Positions 83-8,022 of a stretch of 8,022 bases of DNA are shown here, one piece after another. The stretch comes from an uncultured Desulfomonile sp. GTDB taxonomy: Bacteria; Desulfobacterota; Desulfomonilia; Desulfomonilales; Desulfomonilaceae. A program made the translations under genes and the position numbers. The notes below the pieces were generated by a model. That model saw only the letters and a program-made list of their open reading frames with translations, was not told the origin of the DNA and made no database searches. The stretch is taken from assembly GCA_903853735.1 (NCBI GenBank), contig CAINUH010000012.1:1-8022 (forward strand), given 5' to 3'. Every line of letters starts with the position of its first letter. Positions within the stretch are counted from its first letter, which is position 1.

Positions 83-2383
83 ATGAACGGCGCAAACGAA
101 CACAGGGAAATCCAGCCCGAAAAGAGACCACAAATAGGCATATTGAGAATCGTTCTCTTGGGAGTTATCGCGACAACGCTATTGGGCTCGTTGATTCTGT
201 TACCGGTTAAAGCATACGTGGCGACCGGTCTCCAATGGGCCCATGGACTTGGTTTTTGGGGACCCTTGTTTGTAGCGGCTTTTTACGTCCTGGCAGCCGT
301 CCTGTTTTTGCCTGGTTCGGTAATCACACTCGGCGCAGGTTTCCTGTTCGGGGGCCCAATTGGTTTTATCACGGTTTTGGTTGGCGCAAACCTTGGAGCG
401 TGGGCTGCGTTTCTCGTGGGTCGAAGCATTGCCAGAAATTGGGTCGAACAAAAAGTAAAAGGGAATCCAAAATTCCTGGCTATAGACCGAGCGTTGGGAA
501 GAGAGGGATTTAAAATTGTATTGCTGCTGAGATTGAGCCCCGTGTTCCCGTTCGACCTCCTGAACTATGCCCTTGGTATTACTAAAGTCTCATTCAGAAA
601 TTTTGTTCTAGCCTCGGCAATAGGTATGGTTCCGGGCACTCTCATGTATGTCTATTTCGGCTCAGCAGCGAGATCTCTTACGGACGTAGCTACCGGCAAG
701 GTTGAGGGTGGATTAGCCGGACAGGCGTTCTTTTGGGTTGGGCTAATAATGACCATCGTTGTAGCGTTGTTTGTAACCAGACTGGCTCGCAAGAGCCTGA
801 AGGAAGCAGAGGCGTCGGCAGTCACTGACTCTAGAAAGTCCCCAGCGCTGAATCCACTTCTTTCGGACAAGAAAATTGATGTCCTTCCTGATGACGAACA
901 CAACCGAGAACTGGTATCTAATGTTCGCCCTACAAGCTGGGTTAATCCTCAAGCCGCAGATCGCTACAACCTGGTAGTCATTGGAGCGGGCACCGCAGGG
1001 CTCGTAACGGCGGCAGGCGCTGCCGGCCTCGGCGCAAGAGTAGCCCTTGTGGAGCGCAACCTTTTAGGAGGGGATTGTCTGAATTACGGTTGTGTGCCTT
1101 CCAAGGCCCTCATTCGGTCATCCAGAGCGTACGCTGAGATCCGAGACTCCCATAATTACGGAATTGAGGTGGACTCAGAGGTAAACATCAATTTTTCGTC
1201 GGTGATGGAACGCATGAGAAGACTCCGGGCCAAGATCAGCCATCATGATTCTGCGCAGCGTTTCAAAGAACTGGGAGTGGACGTTTTCCTGGGACATGCT
1301 CGATTCACCAGCTCAAATGCAATAGAAGTCGATGGCAGGACCTTGCGGTTCAAGAAGGCGGTGATTGCTACCGGCGCTCGGGCTGCGCATCCTGGAATAG
1401 AGGGCCTGCCTGAGGCGGGGTTTCTCACGAACGAGACTGTGTTTTCCCTCACCAAAAGGCCTTCTCGACTTGCCGTAATAGGAGGAGGCCCCATAGGCTG
1501 CGAAATGGCGCAGGCATTCCAGAGATTGGGTAGTCAGGTGAGCCTTTTCCACAAGAATGACCACATACTCGACCGTGAGGACAGAGACGCTGCGGGAATC
1601 GTACAAAACAGGTTCAGCAAGGAAGGTGTACAACTGATACTCAACGCTAGCCTTAAAGAAGTCAAGACAACCAATGGAGAAAAGGTTATCCATTTTGAAG
1701 TGAGCGGCGTGCGGAACTCCATTGTGGTGGACGAAATTCTTGTGGGCGCCGGCCGAGCGCCGAATGTTGAGAATCTCAATCTGGAAGCCGCTGGAGTCCA
1801 ATATGATACGCGCAGGGGTGTCTTTGTTGATGATTACCTACAAACCACAAACCCTTCCATTTTTGCGGCGGGTGACATTTCGATGAATTACAAGTTTACT
1901 CACATGGCAGACGCTGCTGCTCGAATCGTAATTCAGAACGCTCTATTCAAGGGTTCCAAGAAACTCAGCGCTCTCACGGCGCCGTGGTGCACCTATACCG
2001 ATCCCGAGATCGCCCATGTGGGCATGTATGAGAGGGATGCGGCTAAACAAAAGATACCCGTAGATACATTCGTGAAACCTCTAGCGGAAGTGGACAGAGC
2101 GATGCTAGACGGGGAGGATCAAGGATTCGTGAAGATTCATGTGAAAAAAGGGACTGACAAGCTCCTCGGAGCGACAATCGTAGCCACTCATGCTGGTGAA
2201 ATGATAAGCGAACTCACTCTGGCCATGGTGGGCAAGTTAGGATTGGGGACCATTTCCGGAGTGATCCATCCTTATCCGACTCAAGCGGAGGCGATCAAAC
2301 AGGCTGCCGACGCGTACAGTCGGACCCGGCTCACCCCTTTTGTGAAGAAACTGTTTACCAAATGGTTTTCCTGGACACGCTGA
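83..2383 (+). CDS. TVP38/TMEM64 membrane domain fused to MerA-like FAD/NAD(P) disulfide oxidoreductase
   Basis: A 766-residue two-part inner-membrane protein. Residues about 20-235 form a SNARE-associated (TVP38/DedA-like) domain with hydrophobic segments near 22-45, 61-90, 91-113, 143-165, 171-193 and 214-233; the family's RLSPVFPFDLLNY-type block starts at R150. A polar linker (about 240-290) leads to a pyridine nucleotide-disulfide oxidoreductase of usual length. This part has the FAD-binding GAGTAG (301-306), the redox pair C332/C337 in GGDCLNYGCVPSK, the NAD(P)-binding GGGPIG (467-472), the second FAD motif FAAGD and the C-terminal dimerisation domain. The motif around 729-736 is HPYPTQAE, so Tyr731 sits where dihydrolipoamide dehydrogenases carry the catalytic His. 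This favours a MerA-like or uncharacterised reductase over true Lpd. The ATG start is supported by AAGGAAG five bases upstream. This fusion architecture is known in other bacteria. The substrate is unknown; position next to arsS suggests a role in arsenic or thiol redox chemistry (inference). Confidence 0.9.
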   Translation: MNGANEHREIQPEKRPQIGILRIVLLGVIATTLLGSLILLPVKAYVATGLQWAHGLGFWGPLFVAAFYVLAAVLFLPGSVITLGAGFLFGGPIGFITVLVGANLGAWAAFLVGRSIARNWVEQKVKGNPKFLAIDRALGREGFKIVLLLRLSPVFPFDLLNYALGITKVSFRNFVLASAIGMVPGTLMYVYFGSAARSLTDVATGKVEGGLAGQAFFWVGLIMTIVVALFVTRLARKSLKEAEASAVTDSRKSPALNPLLSDKKIDVLPDDEHNRELVSNVRPTSWVNPQAADRYNLVVIGAGTAGLVTAAGAAGLGARVALVERNLLGGDCLNYGCVPSKALIRSSRAYAEIRDSHNYGIEVDSEVNINFSSVMERMRRLRAKISHHDSAQRFKELGVDVFLGHARFTSSNAIEVDGRTLRFKKAVIATGARAAHPGIEGLPEAGFLTNETVFSLTKRPSRLAVIGGGPIGCEMAQAFQRLGSQVSLFHKNDHILDREDRDAAGIVQNRFSKEGVQLILNASLKEVKTTNGEKVIHFEVSGVRNSIVVDEILVGAGRAPNVENLNLEAAGVQYDTRRGVFVDDYLQTTNPSIFAAGDISMNYKFTHMADAAARIVIQNALFKGSKKLSALTAPWCTYTDPEIAHVGMYERDAAKQKIPVDTFVKPLAEVDRAMLDGEDQGFVKIHVKKGTDKLLGATIVATHAGEMISELTLAMVGKLGLGTISGVIHPYPTQAEAIKQAADAYSRTRLTPFVKKLFTKWFSWTR

Positions 2384-2410
2384 GACATGACTGTAAAAGT
2401 CTATATTGTT

Positions 2411-2416
2411 AGGAGG
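2411..2416 (+). promoter_or_regulatory. Ribosome binding site that sets the peroxidase-like gene start
   Basis: AGGAGG lies six bases before the ATG at 2423. An earlier in-frame ATG at 2387 has no Shine-Dalgarno sequence and would add 12 residues (MTVKVYIVRRKL) unlike the family's N-terminus. The start at 2423 is therefore preferred. Confidence 0.8.
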
Positions 2417-2422
2417 AAACTC

Positions 2423-2755
2423 ATGGAGAGTTACTACGATCCCAAAGACCTCGCGAAATTCCCTGACGTCGGCGAAGAGGCCCCAGAGTTAGCGAAGAAG
2501 TTTTTCGATTATTACGGAGCAGTGTTTGCCGAAGGGGACCTTACTGAGCGAGAGAAGGCGCTTATTGCATTGGCCGTAGCTCATGCTATCCAGTGTCCAT
2601 ATTGTATTGACGCTTACACTCAGACCTGTCTGGAAAAGGGAGCTAGTCTCGGTGAAATGACCGAGGCGATTCATGTAACGACGGCCATCAGAGGCGGAGC
2701 TTCGCTCGTTCATGCCACCCAGATGAGGAAAATCGCCAAGAAGCTGTCCATGTGA
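2423..2755 (+). CDS. Arsenosugar cluster-associated AhpD/CMD-fold peroxidase-like protein
   Basis: A small soluble protein of 110 residues from the preferred ATG. It belongs to the carboxymuconolactone decarboxylase/AhpD fold: the helical block LTEREKALIALAVAHAIQCP leads into the redox motif CPYC (C58, C61), followed by a glycine-rich helix (IRGGAS). In AhpD the CxxC is followed four residues later by a catalytic His; here that position is Tyr65, so classical alkylhydroperoxidase chemistry may be altered. Another cysteine, C69, lies close by. Members resembling this one occur next to arsS and are named arsenosugar biosynthesis-associated peroxidase-like proteins; their reaction is not established to my knowledge. 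It sits 39 bases after the oxidoreductase and 15 bases before arsS, consistent with one transcript. Family assignment is firm; the biochemical role is inferred from context. Confidence 0.88.
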   Translation: MESYYDPKDLAKFPDVGEEAPELAKKFFDYYGAVFAEGDLTEREKALIALAVAHAIQCPYCIDAYTQTCLEKGASLGEMTEAIHVTTAIRGGASLVHATQMRKIAKKLSM

Positions 2756-2770
2756 GCCACGGAGGCTGTC

Positions 2771-3805
2771 ATGTCACAGAAAACCGCCCCGCTAACCACC
2801 GCTCCGGATGTGAGCGCCGAGCTTCCCCAAAGGCTCGGGATACGACCTTTTGCTCAGACATTGGTCGAGCATGGACTTGATCTCATAAGAGGAGAAACCA
2901 CCACTCTTCAGATCAACCTGGGGTTGTTATGCAACCATACTTGCCGACACTGCCACCTGGAAGCTGGGCCTAGCCGCACGGAACTCATGAACCGGAAAAC
3001 GGTTGACGCTGTAGTCGCCTATGCCCGACGGGAACGCTTCCAGACTATAGATATCACCGGCGGCGCTCCGGAGCTAAACCCAAACCTGGGCTATCTCATC
3101 GAAACGATAGCTCCCGAAGCCCCGAGGCTGATGCTTCGGGTGAACCTCACTGCTATAGCCCAACAGAACACCAACTACTTGCTGGATCTGTGCATGGCTA
3201 ACCGAGTGGTTATTGTGGCGTCGTTTCCTTCCGTGAATTCTTCCCAAACTGACGCTCAGCGGGGAAGAGGAGTATTGGATAGAAGCGTCGCCATGCTTGC
3301 GAAATTCAATGCCTTGGGTTATGGAAAAAATGGAACTGGCCTCGAACTGAATTTGGTATCCAACCCGACGGGCGCTTTCTTGCCAGTTGCCCAGTCTCAG
3401 GCCGAGAAGAAATTCAGGAGCGATCTCGAACGAAAGTGGGGAATTTCTTTCAACAACTTGTTTACGTTCGCGAATGTGCCGTTGGGGAGGTTCCTGACAT
3501 GGCTCATAGACTCCGGGAACCTCGATTCATACATGAAAAAGCTGTCTGCTGGCTTCAACCCTTGCGCTGTCGCGGGATTGATGTGTCGAACATTATTGTC
3601 CGTGAATTGGGAGGGCTATTTGTTCGATTGCGATTTCAACCTGTCGAGGGGGGTCTACCTTGCTGGTCATAAGCGACATGTATCTGAGATGGACGGGTTA
3701 CCGGGACCTGGAACTCGCATACCCACTGGCAATCATTGTTATGCGTGCACAGCCGGGTCGGGATTTTCCTGAGGAGGATCGATTGTGACCCAGGTGGGTC
3801 CTTAG
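2771..3805 (+). CDS. arsS: Arsenosugar biosynthesis radical SAM selenoprotein ArsS (in-frame TGA read as selenocysteine)
   Basis: ArsS is a radical SAM enzyme thought to join a SAM-derived 5'-deoxyadenosyl group to dimethylated arsenic, the committed step to arsenosugars. The radical SAM cluster motif CNHTCRHC gives C54, C58 and C61; GGAPE is the SAM-contact motif. The C-terminal half matches the family's Cys-rich domain (formerly DUF3641): SNPTGAFLP, GFNP, C265, C272, FDCDFN (C287), and HCYACTAGSG with C323 and C326, probable auxiliary Fe-S ligands. A conventional reading stops after 333 residues at TGA 3770-3772. Homologues, as I recall them, continue TAGxGSSCGG; here the codons read TAG SGFS, TGA, then Gly-Gly, so TGA replaces the conserved Cys. 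Reading through gives Sec334 plus SIVTQVGP after Gly-Gly and a TAG stop, 344 residues in all. This family is known to include selenoproteins (TIGR04167, rSAM_SeCys). The start ATG has GGAGG (2761-2765) five bases upstream. ArsS identity is very secure; the Sec reading is strong but inferred. Confidence 0.88.
3770..3800 (+). promoter_or_regulatory. Bacterial SECIS-like element for the arsS UGA codon
   Basis: The TGA (3770-3772) is followed by a perfect hairpin: GACCC (3787-3791), loop AGGT (3792-3795), GGGTC (3796-3800). The loop GG is the 21st and 22nd base after the TGA. Bacterial SECIS elements sit inside the coding region just after UGA, with an apical loop bearing exposed G residues; the E. 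coli fdhF element has an AGGUCU loop with GG at about 19-20 bases. Stem, loop and spacing all fit SelB recognition. There is no T-tract after the stem, which argues against a terminator. Confidence 0.72.
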
Positions 3806-3935
3806 CAACAAGCGAAAAGGTAAGCCGATTACCTGATTGGTTTGAAACTCATGCCGGGTTCGTTGCGATTTTTCGAAACCGGACCGGCGTCAGGGCGCCA
3901 AGCCATTATATACTACAACTGAAAGGACTTTCCCA
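3806..3935. other. Intergenic gap between arsS and the GH15 gene
   Basis: This gap of 130 bases holds an imperfect 9-base-pair hairpin: CCGGGTTCG (3854-3862), an 11-base loop, CGAAACCGG (3874-3882), with one G/A mismatch. It lacks a downstream T-run, so intrinsic termination is doubtful. TATACT at 3909-3914 resembles a -10 box but has no good -35 about 17 bases upstream. The gap could give the GH15 gene a separate promoter, but this is weak. Confidence 0.35.
3922..3927 (+). promoter_or_regulatory. Ribosome binding site supporting the GTG start of the GH15 gene
   Basis: AAAGGA lies eight bases before GTG 3936. No suitable ATG precedes the conserved N-terminal block (VGNGRLLVCFD), so the GTG is the best start. 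Confidence 0.7.
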
Positions 3936-5999
3936 GTGCCCAGAGACATCCCTGTCGGTAACGGACGACTTCTCGTATGCTTTGACAATGAATATCGAAT
4001 CCGGGACCTGTATTTTCCTCACGTAGGTCAAGAAAACCATATCAACGGCAACTATTGCAGGATCGGTATCTGGGCTGACGAGAGCTTCTCCTGGGTGGGA
4101 CCAGGCTGGAAGGTTGATCTCGGATATGCTGCCGACACCTTGGTCACAAATGTGAGTCTTTACAATGAGGATTTTGGGTTGCTTATCTCGGCTCGAGATG
4201 CGGTAGATTTTCACGAGAACATCTACATCCGGGAGATCGAGATAGAGAACTTGAAACCGCAGCGTAGGGAAATCCGTATTTTCTTTTCCCACGACTTCAG
4301 TATTTACGGGAATGACATCGGGAATACGGCAGCTTACGATCCAGAGACTGGGGGAATAGTCCATTACAAAGCTGCCCGATATTTTCTTCTCAACGGCACA
4401 ACAGAAACTCATCCAGGTCTTCTCGGGTTTGCGACGGGCCAGAAAAACATTCGTGGTCTTGAAGGGGCTTTTCGGGATGCCGAAGACGGCATTCTATCAG
4501 GCAACCCGATCGCTCAAGGAGCAGTGGATTCTGTGATGTGTTTCAGTCTTGAGGTTGACGGGTTTTCCAAAGGTAAAGCCCATTTCTGGCTGACCGCCGC
4601 GGAGACCTGGAACCAGGTCCGTGTCCTCGACGCGATTGTTAAGCACAAAGGGCCCGAGGCCCTCATTTCTCGAACTGCCGATTACTGGCGCTTGTGGGTA
4701 ACCAAAGAGACCCCTCGTCTGGATTTGTTGCCACCCCATATAGGTAAATTGTACGTTCGAAGCCTTCTCGTCCTGCGGACTCAGATGGACTGGCAGGGAG
4801 GTATTGTTGCAGCGAATGATTCAGACATAGTCAACTTCAATCGGGACACCTATTCGTATATCTGGCCACGAGACGGGGCGCTTGTCGCCAATGCTCTGGA
4901 TCAATCGGGTCACCTTATGCCCGCTCAAGCATTCTACCAGTTTGCTGCGGATGTCATAGAGAAAGAAGGGTATTTCCTACACAAGTACAACCCTGATCGC
5001 ACGCTCGCCTCTTCATGGCATCCCTGGTTTAGCAACGGAGAGCCTCAACTACCCATACAGGAAGATGAAACTGCTCTCGTCTTGTGGGCGCTTTGGCGCC
5101 ACTTCGTCAAGTATCGGGACATCGAGTTTATCAAGCCATTGTACAAGCCGCTCATAAAGAGCGCCGCCGATTTTATGTGCGCCTTCAGGGATGAGCGGAC
5201 CGGTCTTCCTGCTCCTTCGTATGACCTGTGGGAAGAACGCCGCGGAATATGGAGCTTTACCGTTGGCGCAGTCTTCGGAGGTCTGACGTCAGCTTCCTTG
5301 TTCTGTACCGTGTTCGGGGAGAACCAACGGGCTGAAGTCTATCGCAAAGCGGCGGCTGAAATACGGGACGCGGCTTCAACTCATCTGTGGAGACAAGATC
5401 TCAATCGTTTCTGTAGAATGCTATACCGCGATCCCCAAGGCAAGCTTGAGGTTGATTCTACCGGTGATGCGAGCATCTGGGGACTCTTCGCGTTTGGTCT
5501 CTACTCTGCTGACGATCCGAAGATAGCTTCCACCATGTCAGACCTGAGGGAAAGACTATGGGTGGGAGCAGGCGTGGGCGGAATGGCTCGGTATGAGAAT
5601 GATTATTATCACCAGGTGACCAAAGATGTGCCGGGTAATCCCTGGTTCATATGCACTCTGTGGTTGGCCGACTACCTTGCCGAAAGAGCAACTGACGAAA
5701 AGGAGATAGCAGAGGCTGTGGACATACTCAAATGGGTGACCGATCACGCCCTCCCGTCGGGGATTCTCGCTGAACAGGCGCATCCGTTCACAGGGGCGCC
5801 TTTATCGGTCTCACCACTCACATGGAGCCACGCCACATTCGTTGCAACGGTTCATCGCGTTCTCCGTCGTCTGGGAGCTATAAAGACCTGTCCTCAATGT
5901 GGCTCGCCCCTGACCGACCACGAAAAGAGAGAAGATTGGATCCAGCGGTTGTATTCGGAGACCTGCGACGAAATCTATGGCATGTGCAGGATCGAATGA
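3936..5999 (+). CDS. Glycoside hydrolase family 15 protein (glucoamylase-like)
   Basis: A 687-residue, probably cytoplasmic enzyme with no signal peptide. The N-terminal beta domain (about 1-260, starting GNGRLLVCFDNEYRIRDLYF) is typical of bacterial and archaeal GH15. The (alpha/alpha)6 catalytic domain follows: FNRDTYSYIWPRDGA (R303-D304, W310-D313; substrate-binding WPRD), the LHKYNPD block, QEDETALVLWAL, DLWEER with E433 as likely catalytic acid, GNPWFICTLWLADYL, and LAEQ with E613 as likely catalytic base. Both catalytic glutamates are present, so it should be active as an inverting exo-alpha-glucosidase; glucoamylase, glucodextranase and trehalase specificities occur in the family and cannot be separated here. 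The C-terminal tail has CPQC (C652, C655) and later C677 and C684, which could bind a metal. It lies between arsS and the transferase fusion, 130 bases after arsS. Whether it trims a glucoside linked to the arsenosugar pathway or works in storage-glucan metabolism is open. Confidence 0.92.
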   Translation: MPRDIPVGNGRLLVCFDNEYRIRDLYFPHVGQENHINGNYCRIGIWADESFSWVGPGWKVDLGYAADTLVTNVSLYNEDFGLLISARDAVDFHENIYIREIEIENLKPQRREIRIFFSHDFSIYGNDIGNTAAYDPETGGIVHYKAARYFLLNGTTETHPGLLGFATGQKNIRGLEGAFRDAEDGILSGNPIAQGAVDSVMCFSLEVDGFSKGKAHFWLTAAETWNQVRVLDAIVKHKGPEALISRTADYWRLWVTKETPRLDLLPPHIGKLYVRSLLVLRTQMDWQGGIVAANDSDIVNFNRDTYSYIWPRDGALVANALDQSGHLMPAQAFYQFAADVIEKEGYFLHKYNPDRTLASSWHPWFSNGEPQLPIQEDETALVLWALWRHFVKYRDIEFIKPLYKPLIKSAADFMCAFRDERTGLPAPSYDLWEERRGIWSFTVGAVFGGLTSASLFCTVFGENQRAEVYRKAAAEIRDAASTHLWRQDLNRFCRMLYRDPQGKLEVDSTGDASIWGLFAFGLYSADDPKIASTMSDLRERLWVGAGVGGMARYENDYYHQVTKDVPGNPWFICTLWLADYLAERATDEKEIAEAVDILKWVTDHALPSGILAEQAHPFTGAPLSVSPLTWSHATFVATVHRVLRRLGAIKTCPQCGSPLTDHEKREDWIQRLYSETCDEIYGMCRIE

Positions 6000-6298
6000 G
6001 CTAATTCAATCATCCGCGATGACATGAGGCAAGATGGCCAACAACTCGGGGATGCGATGCTAAAAGTGTCAACGACAAGCCAAAGATAACGCAGGAATGG
6101 GGATTGCCGGTAAATTTGTCGAATGCCTCGCTAACAATCCAGTAAGTATTTAAGCCGACTTAGCTTCTATCGAATGCCCGAATACTTAGACTTGATCATT
6201 GAAGCTCTTGATTGAGCACACACTAGACTGTCCATATTGTTTGTCCTTGAAAACTCGGAGACGAAACCAAAAGCCACGCAGTGAGGCACTGTATCCAA
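6000..6298. other. Non-coding gap between GH15 and the transferase fusion
   Basis: No protein-like frame of useful length is present; all short frames end quickly. Visible structure: a 9-base direct repeat TCGAATGCC at 6119-6127 and 6170-6178, an 8-base inverted repeat TAAGTATT (6143-6150) / AATACTTA (6181-6188), and CTTGAT repeated at 6191-6196 and 6207-6212. These could be regulator sites for a promoter serving the downstream gene, but no clear -35/-10 pair stands out. No intrinsic terminator with a T-tract follows the GH15 stop. Confidence 0.45.
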
Positions 6299-8022
6299 AT
6301 GAGGAATGGGAATAGCATAGCCGTTATTATTCCTGCGCTTAACGAGGAGAAATCGATTGGAAGAGTTTTAACCGCTATCCCGAAGTGGGTAGACGAAATA
6401 GTAGTCGTAGACAACGGCTCAACCGATAACACACCAACGATCGCGGCCAAGCACGGGGCACGTGTGGTCTTTGAGCCTCGACGTGGTTATGGCTCTGCTT
6501 GTCTTAAGGGTATCGCATCCCTTAGGGAACCTGACATAGTAGTGTTCATGGACGCAGATTTCAGCGACCACCCTGAAGAAGCGCACCTCCTGGTAGACCC
6601 CATAGTCGCTGGGATCGCGGACATAGTGATTGGCTCTCGCGTCTTGGGGAACCGTGAGGACGGCGCTCTAACCCCTCAAGCGATCTTCGGTAACTGGCTT
6701 TCCTGTAGGCTCATAGCACTGCTGTGGAAAACCAGATTTACAGACTTGGGGCCCTTTCGCGCCATTAGTTTCGGAGCGCTTCAACGACTTGGAATGTGTG
6801 ACCCTGATTACGGCTGGACCGTAGAAATGCAGATTAAGGCAGCGAGACAAGGGCTACGTTGCATGGAAGTCCCCGTGTCGTATCGCAAACGAATAGGCAA
6901 GTCAAAAATCTCTGGAACCGTTAGGGGGGTCGTTGGCGCAGGGGCCAAGATTCTCTACACCATCTTTACAGCCTCTCTGGAGGGTTTTCTCTCCAAAAAA
7001 AGTAATAAGGATATTATTATAATATTTTGTCGCTACCCAGCGCCCGGAAAAACCAAGACCCGTTTAATTCCAGCGCTTGGGACGCAGGGCGCCGCGGATT
7101 ATCACAGACTTCTCTCCCAACTGATAGTTAGTTGCGCCCGAGATTTTGTCAAACTCCACCGAAGGACGGCTATCGAGATCTATTACACTGGAGGTAACGA
7201 GGCATTAATGAAGGATTGGCTGGGAGCCGACCTTTTGTATTTCGAGCAACCGTTAGGTGACCTCGGGAGCCGAATGCAATCCTCTTTCGACCGAGCGTTC
7301 TTAAAAGGAGCAGGCCACGTTGTCATTTTTGGAACCGATGTCCCTGCCCTTTCCGTTAACTTACTCGAAGAGGCTTTTAAAAAACTCGAGTCCCACGACA
7401 TGGTCCTTGGACCATCTGAAGACGGCGGTTATTACCTCATCGGTTTCAATCGACCATTTAACGGTCTTTTCCAAGGCATAGCATGGGGCACTCACACCGT
7501 GGCGCAGGACACTCTGAGGCTGGCAAGACAGCATCATTTGTCCCATGACTTGATAAAGCGTCTCAAAGATGTTGACAGACCGGAAGACCTAATCATCCAC
7601 GAAGGACATCCGCTCCCAACGGCTGATTTTTCGGAGCCTAGCGCCATTCGCTCTTCGCTGAAATCAATTTCGGTAATAATCCCAACTCTGAACGAGGAAT
7701 CAAACATTGCCAACACCTTAGCCACGGTTATGGGCTTCGATAACGTGGAGATTATTGTGGTTGATGGCGGCAGTACGGACAGAACGGTTGAGATAGCCTG
7801 CGCTCACGACGCAACGGTATTGTCAGGTCCAGGAGGAAAGGCTTCCCAGATGAATCTGGGCTCAATGGTAGCGGGCGGCGAATTTATAGTTTTTCTTCAT
7901 GCGGATACGGTCATGCCAGAGGGGTGGATTGATCACGTTTACCGCGAGCTACAACGACAAGGAGTGGTCGCAGGGGCATTCAGGCTTCGTATCGATTGCA
8001 ACCGGTGGAGTATGCGCTTGAT
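6299..8022 (+). CDS. Three-module transferase: DPM1-like GT2 + TIGR04282 (DUF2064) + TIGR04283 GT2 (3' partial)
   Basis: One uninterrupted frame of 574 codons runs off the window end. Module 1 (about 7-230) is a GT2 glycosyltransferase of the DPM1/DPG-synthase type: VIIPALNEE, VVDNGSTD (D38, D43), metal-binding DAD (D85, D87), GWTVEMQ (172-178), then YRKRIGKSKISGT. Module 2 (about 238-440) is the CofC/MobA-like TIGR04282 family: FCRYPAPGKTKTRL (243-256), GTDVP (345-349), GPSEDGGYYLIG (371-382) and DVDRPEDL. Module 3 (from 456) is a TIGR04283 GT2: ISVIIPTLNEE, VVDGGSTD (489-494) and HADT (534-537); roughly 100 residues should lie beyond the window. Modules 2 and 3 are the transferases that accompany arsS and probably build or decorate the arsenosugar. 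No transmembrane segment is seen in the part present. The ATG at 6299 leaves a natural short N-terminus, but its ribosome site (GTGAGG, 6281-6286) is distant; GTG 6281 is an alternative start in the same frame. Confidence 0.9.
   Translation, partial: MRNGNSIAVIIPALNEEKSIGRVLTAIPKWVDEIVVVDNGSTDNTPTIAAKHGARVVFEPRRGYGSACLKGIASLREPDIVVFMDADFSDHPEEAHLLVDPIVAGIADIVIGSRVLGNREDGALTPQAIFGNWLSCRLIALLWKTRFTDLGPFRAISFGALQRLGMCDPDYGWTVEMQIKAARQGLRCMEVPVSYRKRIGKSKISGTVRGVVGAGAKILYTIFTASLEGFLSKKSNKDIIIIFCRYPAPGKTKTRLIPALGTQGAADYHRLLSQLIVSCARDFVKLHRRTAIEIYYTGGNEALMKDWLGADLLYFEQPLGDLGSRMQSSFDRAFLKGAGHVVIFGTDVPALSVNLLEEAFKKLESHDMVLGPSEDGGYYLIGFNRPFNGLFQGIAWGTHTVAQDTLRLARQHHLSHDLIKRLKDVDRPEDLIIHEGHPLPTADFSEPSAIRSSLKSISVIIPTLNEESNIANTLATVMGFDNVEIIVVDGGSTDRTVEIACAHDATVLSGPGGKASQMNLGSMVAGGEFIVFLHADTVMPEGWIDHVYRELQRQGVVAGAFRLRIDCNRWSMRL

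Follow-up and report, generated by a model that had tools for sequence, protein, structure and literature searches.

The closest described system to the gene studied here is rSAM_SeCys/ArsS (AAR34688.1), which is listed as a predicted selenoprotein of the TIGR04167 family in excerpts of two reviews (PMC9312934, PMC13188914), the second of which credits Zhang and Gladyshev 2005 for the assignment. The full NCBIfam name of the family is "arsenosugar biosynthesis radical SAM (seleno)protein ArsS", and some database entries, P0008 and P0017 among them, bear the (seleno)protein ArsS name. An earlier note on this DNA stated that the family was originally described with a Sec/Cys position (rSAM_SeCys). 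As regards function, adenosylation of arsenic by a radical SAM enzyme, as a step of oxo-arsenosugar biosynthesis, is described for other members in an excerpt of PMC12159101 that cites Cheng et al. 2021. ArsS as a possible selenoprotein is already in print, and the arsS gene of the window (by which we mean the whole stretch of 8,022 nucleotides analysed) very probably adds a further case.

The window gene and AAR34688.1, which we compared by its published listing, belong to the same family, and in both Sec lies close to the C-terminus within a GxxU motif (G331-F-S-U334 as predicted for the window); they differ in organism and in that the window has CAG seven codons after the Sec codon and its stop, TAG, four codons further on. 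The Cys-type ArsS of 51 of the 80 loci described below shares the family and the C-terminal motif, but has a Cys codon and in no case (0/51) a hairpin at the Sec-type position, whereas the window has TGA and a hairpin. A third group, NF045646 (rSAM_Se_TrsS), is a selenoprotein family by name and has the radical SAM core in common with the window protein, which scores only 19 bits against it (cut-off 490).

The arsS reading frame and its neighbours

The conventional arsS ORF runs on the + strand from the ATG at 2771 to the TGA at 3770-3772 and encodes 333 aa. When this TGA is read through, residue 334 and ten further codons (GGSIVTQVGP) are added before a TAG is reached, so that the conventional call would be short by 11 residues; on the coordinates of the frame, the ten open codons and the number of residues lost, the recomputed ORF agrees with the earlier note. 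Residues 40-338 of the read-through product align with positions 4-303 of the 303 positions of the TIGR04167 profile (cut-off 300), and therefore the conserved end of the family sits downstream of the TGA.

The features of the window are collected in Table 1. Like TIGR04169 and TIGR04282, TIGR04283 has a name that refers to arsenosugar biosynthesis; its start is recognized in the ORF at 6281-8020 with 160.2 bits, below the cut-off of 182, over profile positions 1-120 of 221, and the same ORF also has a GT2 domain joined to these two parts. Among the NCBIfam matches listed for five ORFs of the window there was none to the ArsM family, save for a weak match of the peroxidase-like gene to an AhpD domain. 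Two other genes may be mentioned: the ORF at 83-2383, in which an N-terminal VTT membrane domain is joined to a MerA-like FAD-containing oxidoreductase (NF004991, 855.9 bits), and a glycosyl hydrolase family 15 gene (3936-5999), which lies directly behind arsS, beside the arsenosugar-type genes.

Table 1. Features of the arsS region in the window.
Feature	Coordinates	Strand	Evidence
arsS, predicted read-through form, 344 aa with Sec334	2771..3805	+	TIGR04167, 373.3 bits
TGA codon for predicted Sec334	3770..3772	+	aligned codon TGA 28, Cys 51, off contig 1 (80 loci)
Candidate SECIS apical hairpin, stem GACCC/GGGTC, loop AGGT	3787..3800	+	loop 19 nt after TGA; relatives covary
TAG, probable real stop	3803..3805	+	TGA at same place in sisters L024, L095, L098
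TIGR04169 arsenosugar biosynthesis-associated peroxidase-like protein	2387..2755	+	192.1 bits, cut-off 120
Fused glycosyltransferase, runs off window	6281..8020	+	TIGR04282, 202.9 bits (cut-off 134), and start of TIGR04283

The predicted Sec334 codon in relatives

From 586 confirmed stretches, the 80 best relatives were taken and their DNA was compared with the window. The codon aligned to position 334 was TGA in 28 of these loci and Cys in 51, and in the remaining one (L026) the contig ends before it. Thus, TGA or Cys occupies the column in 79/79 genomic loci that reach it, mostly with Gly-Gly next, as in the UGG predicted at residues 334-336 of the window. The claim that the TGA sits at a conserved Cys followed by Gly-Gly is upheld by this alignment, in which homologues ending naturally without the conserved Cys-Gly-Gly did not turn up. 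One alternative is that translation ends at the TGA as at any ordinary stop, this lineage having lost the Cys-Gly-Gly tail and the downstream codons being a relic. This is hard to reconcile with the preservation of both TGA and a GG-rich tail in 28 loci whose proteins diverge by 40-60%, with neither TAA nor TAG ever found at this codon.

Recognition of this column would also correct a truncated annotation: among the matches listed in the protein search (120 relatives out of at least 8000 scored), 115 stop just before residue 334 and only five continue, with Cys at that position (P0032, P0037, P0066, P0074, P0096), yet Cys or Sec is encoded in all 79 genomic loci. Judging by record titles, the TGA loci are deltaproteobacterial or of Desulfo-type, with the exception of L014, titled only Proteobacteria; Cys is found at the column in L015 and L019 (Geobacter, Geobacteraceae) and in all of L032-L080. 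The search also took in 18 genomes of the GTDB family to which the conspecific genome belongs. Nine TIGR04167 loci over the cut-off were recognized in 8 of these 18, and another genome (G058) holds an ArsS fragment with a score of 175.2 bits, below the cut-off; all ten loci carry TGA, four of them (in the genomes of L001, L005, L012 and L024) being already among the 80. As a separate observation, the TGA-type ArsS at L017:6868-6987 has nine residues fewer than the similar L010, among them a CxxC that is otherwise conserved immediately ahead of the Sec codon; the gap reflects either a deletion or an assembly fault.

A SECIS-like hairpin behind the TGA

Since an Rfam scan of the window gave only two matches, both unrelated and below the gathering score, a SECIS was sought by comparison. 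The bacterial SECIS model in an excerpt of PMC13188914 has a loop of 3-9 nt, a stem of 4-16 bp, a G in the first two loop positions, a spacing of 16-37 nt and a folding energy of -7.5 kcal/mol or lower. The hairpin of the window (GACCC-AGGT-GGGTC) has a loop of 4 nt with G at position 2, a stem of 5 bp and a spacing of 19 nt; its energy is -7.1 kcal/mol for the bare hairpin, just short of the published value, and -7.9 kcal/mol when the segment 3779-3803 is folded. Longer segments behave differently from each other: those that begin at 3770 or 3773 and extend to about 3815 favour an alternative stem, and the hairpin is seen in the fold of 3762-3830. Against shuffled sequences, the folding of a single sequence does not reach significance (z about -1).

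Relatives were then compared. The counts include 27 rather than 28 TGA loci, as the motif search did not pick up L027, and 136 control ORFs, defined as stop-to-stop stretches of at least 200 aa ending in TGA in L001-L031 and taken without a check that they are genes. At -5 kcal/mol and a spacing of 18-22, a hairpin is found in 23/27 TGA loci, 0/51 Cys loci and 3/136 control ORFs; with the wide spacing of 16-37, 4/51 Cys loci and 23/136 control ORFs also pass. Requiring a perfect stem and -7.5 kcal/mol leaves 13/27 TGA loci, 3/51 Cys loci and 11/136 control ORFs, and the narrow spacing of 18-22 reduces these numbers to 13/27, 0/51 and 1/136, respectively. A simple stem score also separates TGA from Cys loci (27 vs 51, p = 1e-8), the highest single score being that of Cys locus L048, with a long stem further downstream. 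When a G in the loop is required by the loop-G rule, three TGA loci (L022, L028, L031) are left without a hairpin. In the six further loci of the GTDB family the hairpin reaches -7.1 kcal/mol or better in four, -4.8 in L101 and only -0.8 in L111.

Because an ungapped alignment of the 27 rows misplaces hairpins of different loop length, pair counts were restricted to a selected set, the 15 of 28 loci that have one loop length. In this set 89.5% of the cells pair, versus 76.0% after shuffling, and 16 cells are changed on both sides, versus 6.0; sliding the partner cuts pairing to 43.8% or less. The covariation of the hairpin in these 15 loci is 0.382, compared with 0.132 in the shuffled sets, none of 500 shuffles reaching as high. 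Overall, sequence comparison points to a conserved, covarying SECIS-like hairpin behind the TGA of relatives, which is a second argument against an ordinary stop.

Sec machinery in relatives of the host

Locus L001 (Syntrophaceae MAG_BA410) is 98% identical to the window over 1907-7998, with 5 differences in the 1,035 bases of arsS and 0 in the 130 bases behind it. That the TGA is really a Cys codon, altered by an error of sequencing or assembly, is hardly credible, since it is shared by L001 in spite of these differences, by L024 and by 26 further loci; the separate assemblies contradict an error.

The earlier note had proposed a search of the host for selA, selB, selC and selD. In the conspecific MAG (G001) we found selB (401.6 bits), selD (350.9 bits) and part of selA (331.2 bits, at a contig end), and in the sister genome G002 (that of L024, whose ArsS is 93% identical) all four genes; tRNA-Sec was not found in the MAG, the best score being 42.4 bits against a threshold of 47. 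A complete lack of Sec machinery is not what these genomes show. Elsewhere, tRNA-Sec was found in G060 but not in the related G053 (best score 42.6 bits vs 47).

A wider comparison covered 50 genomes, 28 with TGA, 21 with Cys, and that of L026, which has both SelB and tRNA-Sec and was left out of the contrast, its contig stopping short of the codon. SelB over the cut-off is present in 24 TGA and 9 Cys genomes, and tRNA-Sec in 20 and 10, respectively; one or the other occurs in 26/28 TGA versus 10/21 Cys genomes (p = 7e-4, uncorrected for kinship). Six of the 28 TGA genomes have SelB without tRNA-Sec and two (L021, L028) have neither, although L021 has a SelB fragment of 237.8 bits against the cut-off of 242.25. 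It can also be seen that in both the conspecific MAG and the sister (L087, L088) selD has an in-frame TGA in SGUAAKIGPGDL, which we take to be the usual Sec/Cys site of SelD; SelD itself is therefore probably a selenoprotein there.

These observations bear on the remaining alternatives. For an ordinary stop speak the missing tRNA-Sec of the conspecific MAG and the fact that insertion of Sec at residue 334 is something we infer from sequence; with the Sec genes of the MAG and of G002 added to the hairpin and to the conservation of the column, we consider that explanation highly improbable. Reading of the UGA, reassigned or suppressed, as a residue other than Sec would be compatible with the data in so far as the identity of an inserted residue lies beyond them, but the other 51 loci have Cys in this column, the conspecific MAG carries selB, selA and selD, and the genes of the window end at TGA in the normal way of table 11, only where expected; its likelihood is in our opinion negligible.

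Taken with the TGA/Cys column, the hairpin and the Sec genes of the conspecific MAG and sister, the arsS product is probably a protein of 344 residues with Sec334, and the proposal of the earlier note that ArsS is a selenoprotein agrees with all three. The window ArsS would thus very probably be made as follows. SelB, loaded with Sec-tRNA, would recognize the 3787-3800 hairpin downstream of the UGA (3770-3772), Sec would go in as residue 334, and the ribosome would stop ten codons later, at the UAG at 3803-3805. The enzyme would then join a 5'-deoxyadenosyl group to methylated arsenic en route to arsenosugars, as suggested by its family name and by the excerpt of PMC12159101.

A possible role for residue 334

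The three cysteines of the CxxxCxxC motif for the SAM cluster (C54, C58, C61) are present in 81/81 aligned sequences, and four others (C272, C287, C323, C326) are just as invariant; C265 is Cys in 43 of the 81. Position 334 is Cys in 43/43 aligned rows that reach it, with the Sec of the window counted as Cys. As the four invariant cysteines beyond the SAM motif would suffice for an auxiliary cluster, a role of Sec334 in substrate handling or redox chemistry is favoured over that of cluster ligand, which had also been suggested and now appears less likely. The predicted structure has a mean pLDDT of 90, with residues 335-344 under 50; these low values would fit a mobile tail or merely poor alignment coverage. 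The best Foldseek matches are general radical SAM enzymes (SkfB, SuiB, EpeE), uninformative on the tail. Tentatively, Sec334, on this low-confidence C-terminal tail, might act as a reactive chalcogen, either in the handling of As(III) or in a redox step. The Cys and Sec forms of ArsS provide a natural series of one arsenic enzyme, with which the part of selenium in C-As chemistry could be tested.

A second TGA inside the hairpin

In 22/28 TGA loci a second in-frame TGA occurs seven codons after the Sec codon (for example L009:1665-1667) and falls within the hairpin, as in GCCTGAGTTCAGGC. The remaining loci have TAG (L014, L031), CAG (L001, L005, L024) or CGG (L025) at this place, and TAG is found there also in L101 and L111. 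One-base loop differences in L007, L012, L016, L018, L023 and L030 shift the frame downstream. We considered whether the second TGA could encode a second Sec and think it unlikely: because TAG shares its column and the loop differences shift the downstream frame, it is probably a real stop in those loci.

If the second TGA is taken as a stop, it follows that the SECIS straddles the stop codon in those genes. One hairpin would then serve the Sec-UGA while the terminating UGA, 21 nt downstream, lies in its own stem, two identical codons having opposite meanings and the hairpin being half coding and half 3' UTR; we give this picture an even chance of being correct. A limited literature search for a SECIS straddling a stop brought up only work that, judged by title and abstract, concerns vertebrate or mammalian-type selenoproteins. 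The lineage of the window departs from this arrangement, with CAG at the second position and its end at the TAG four codons on.
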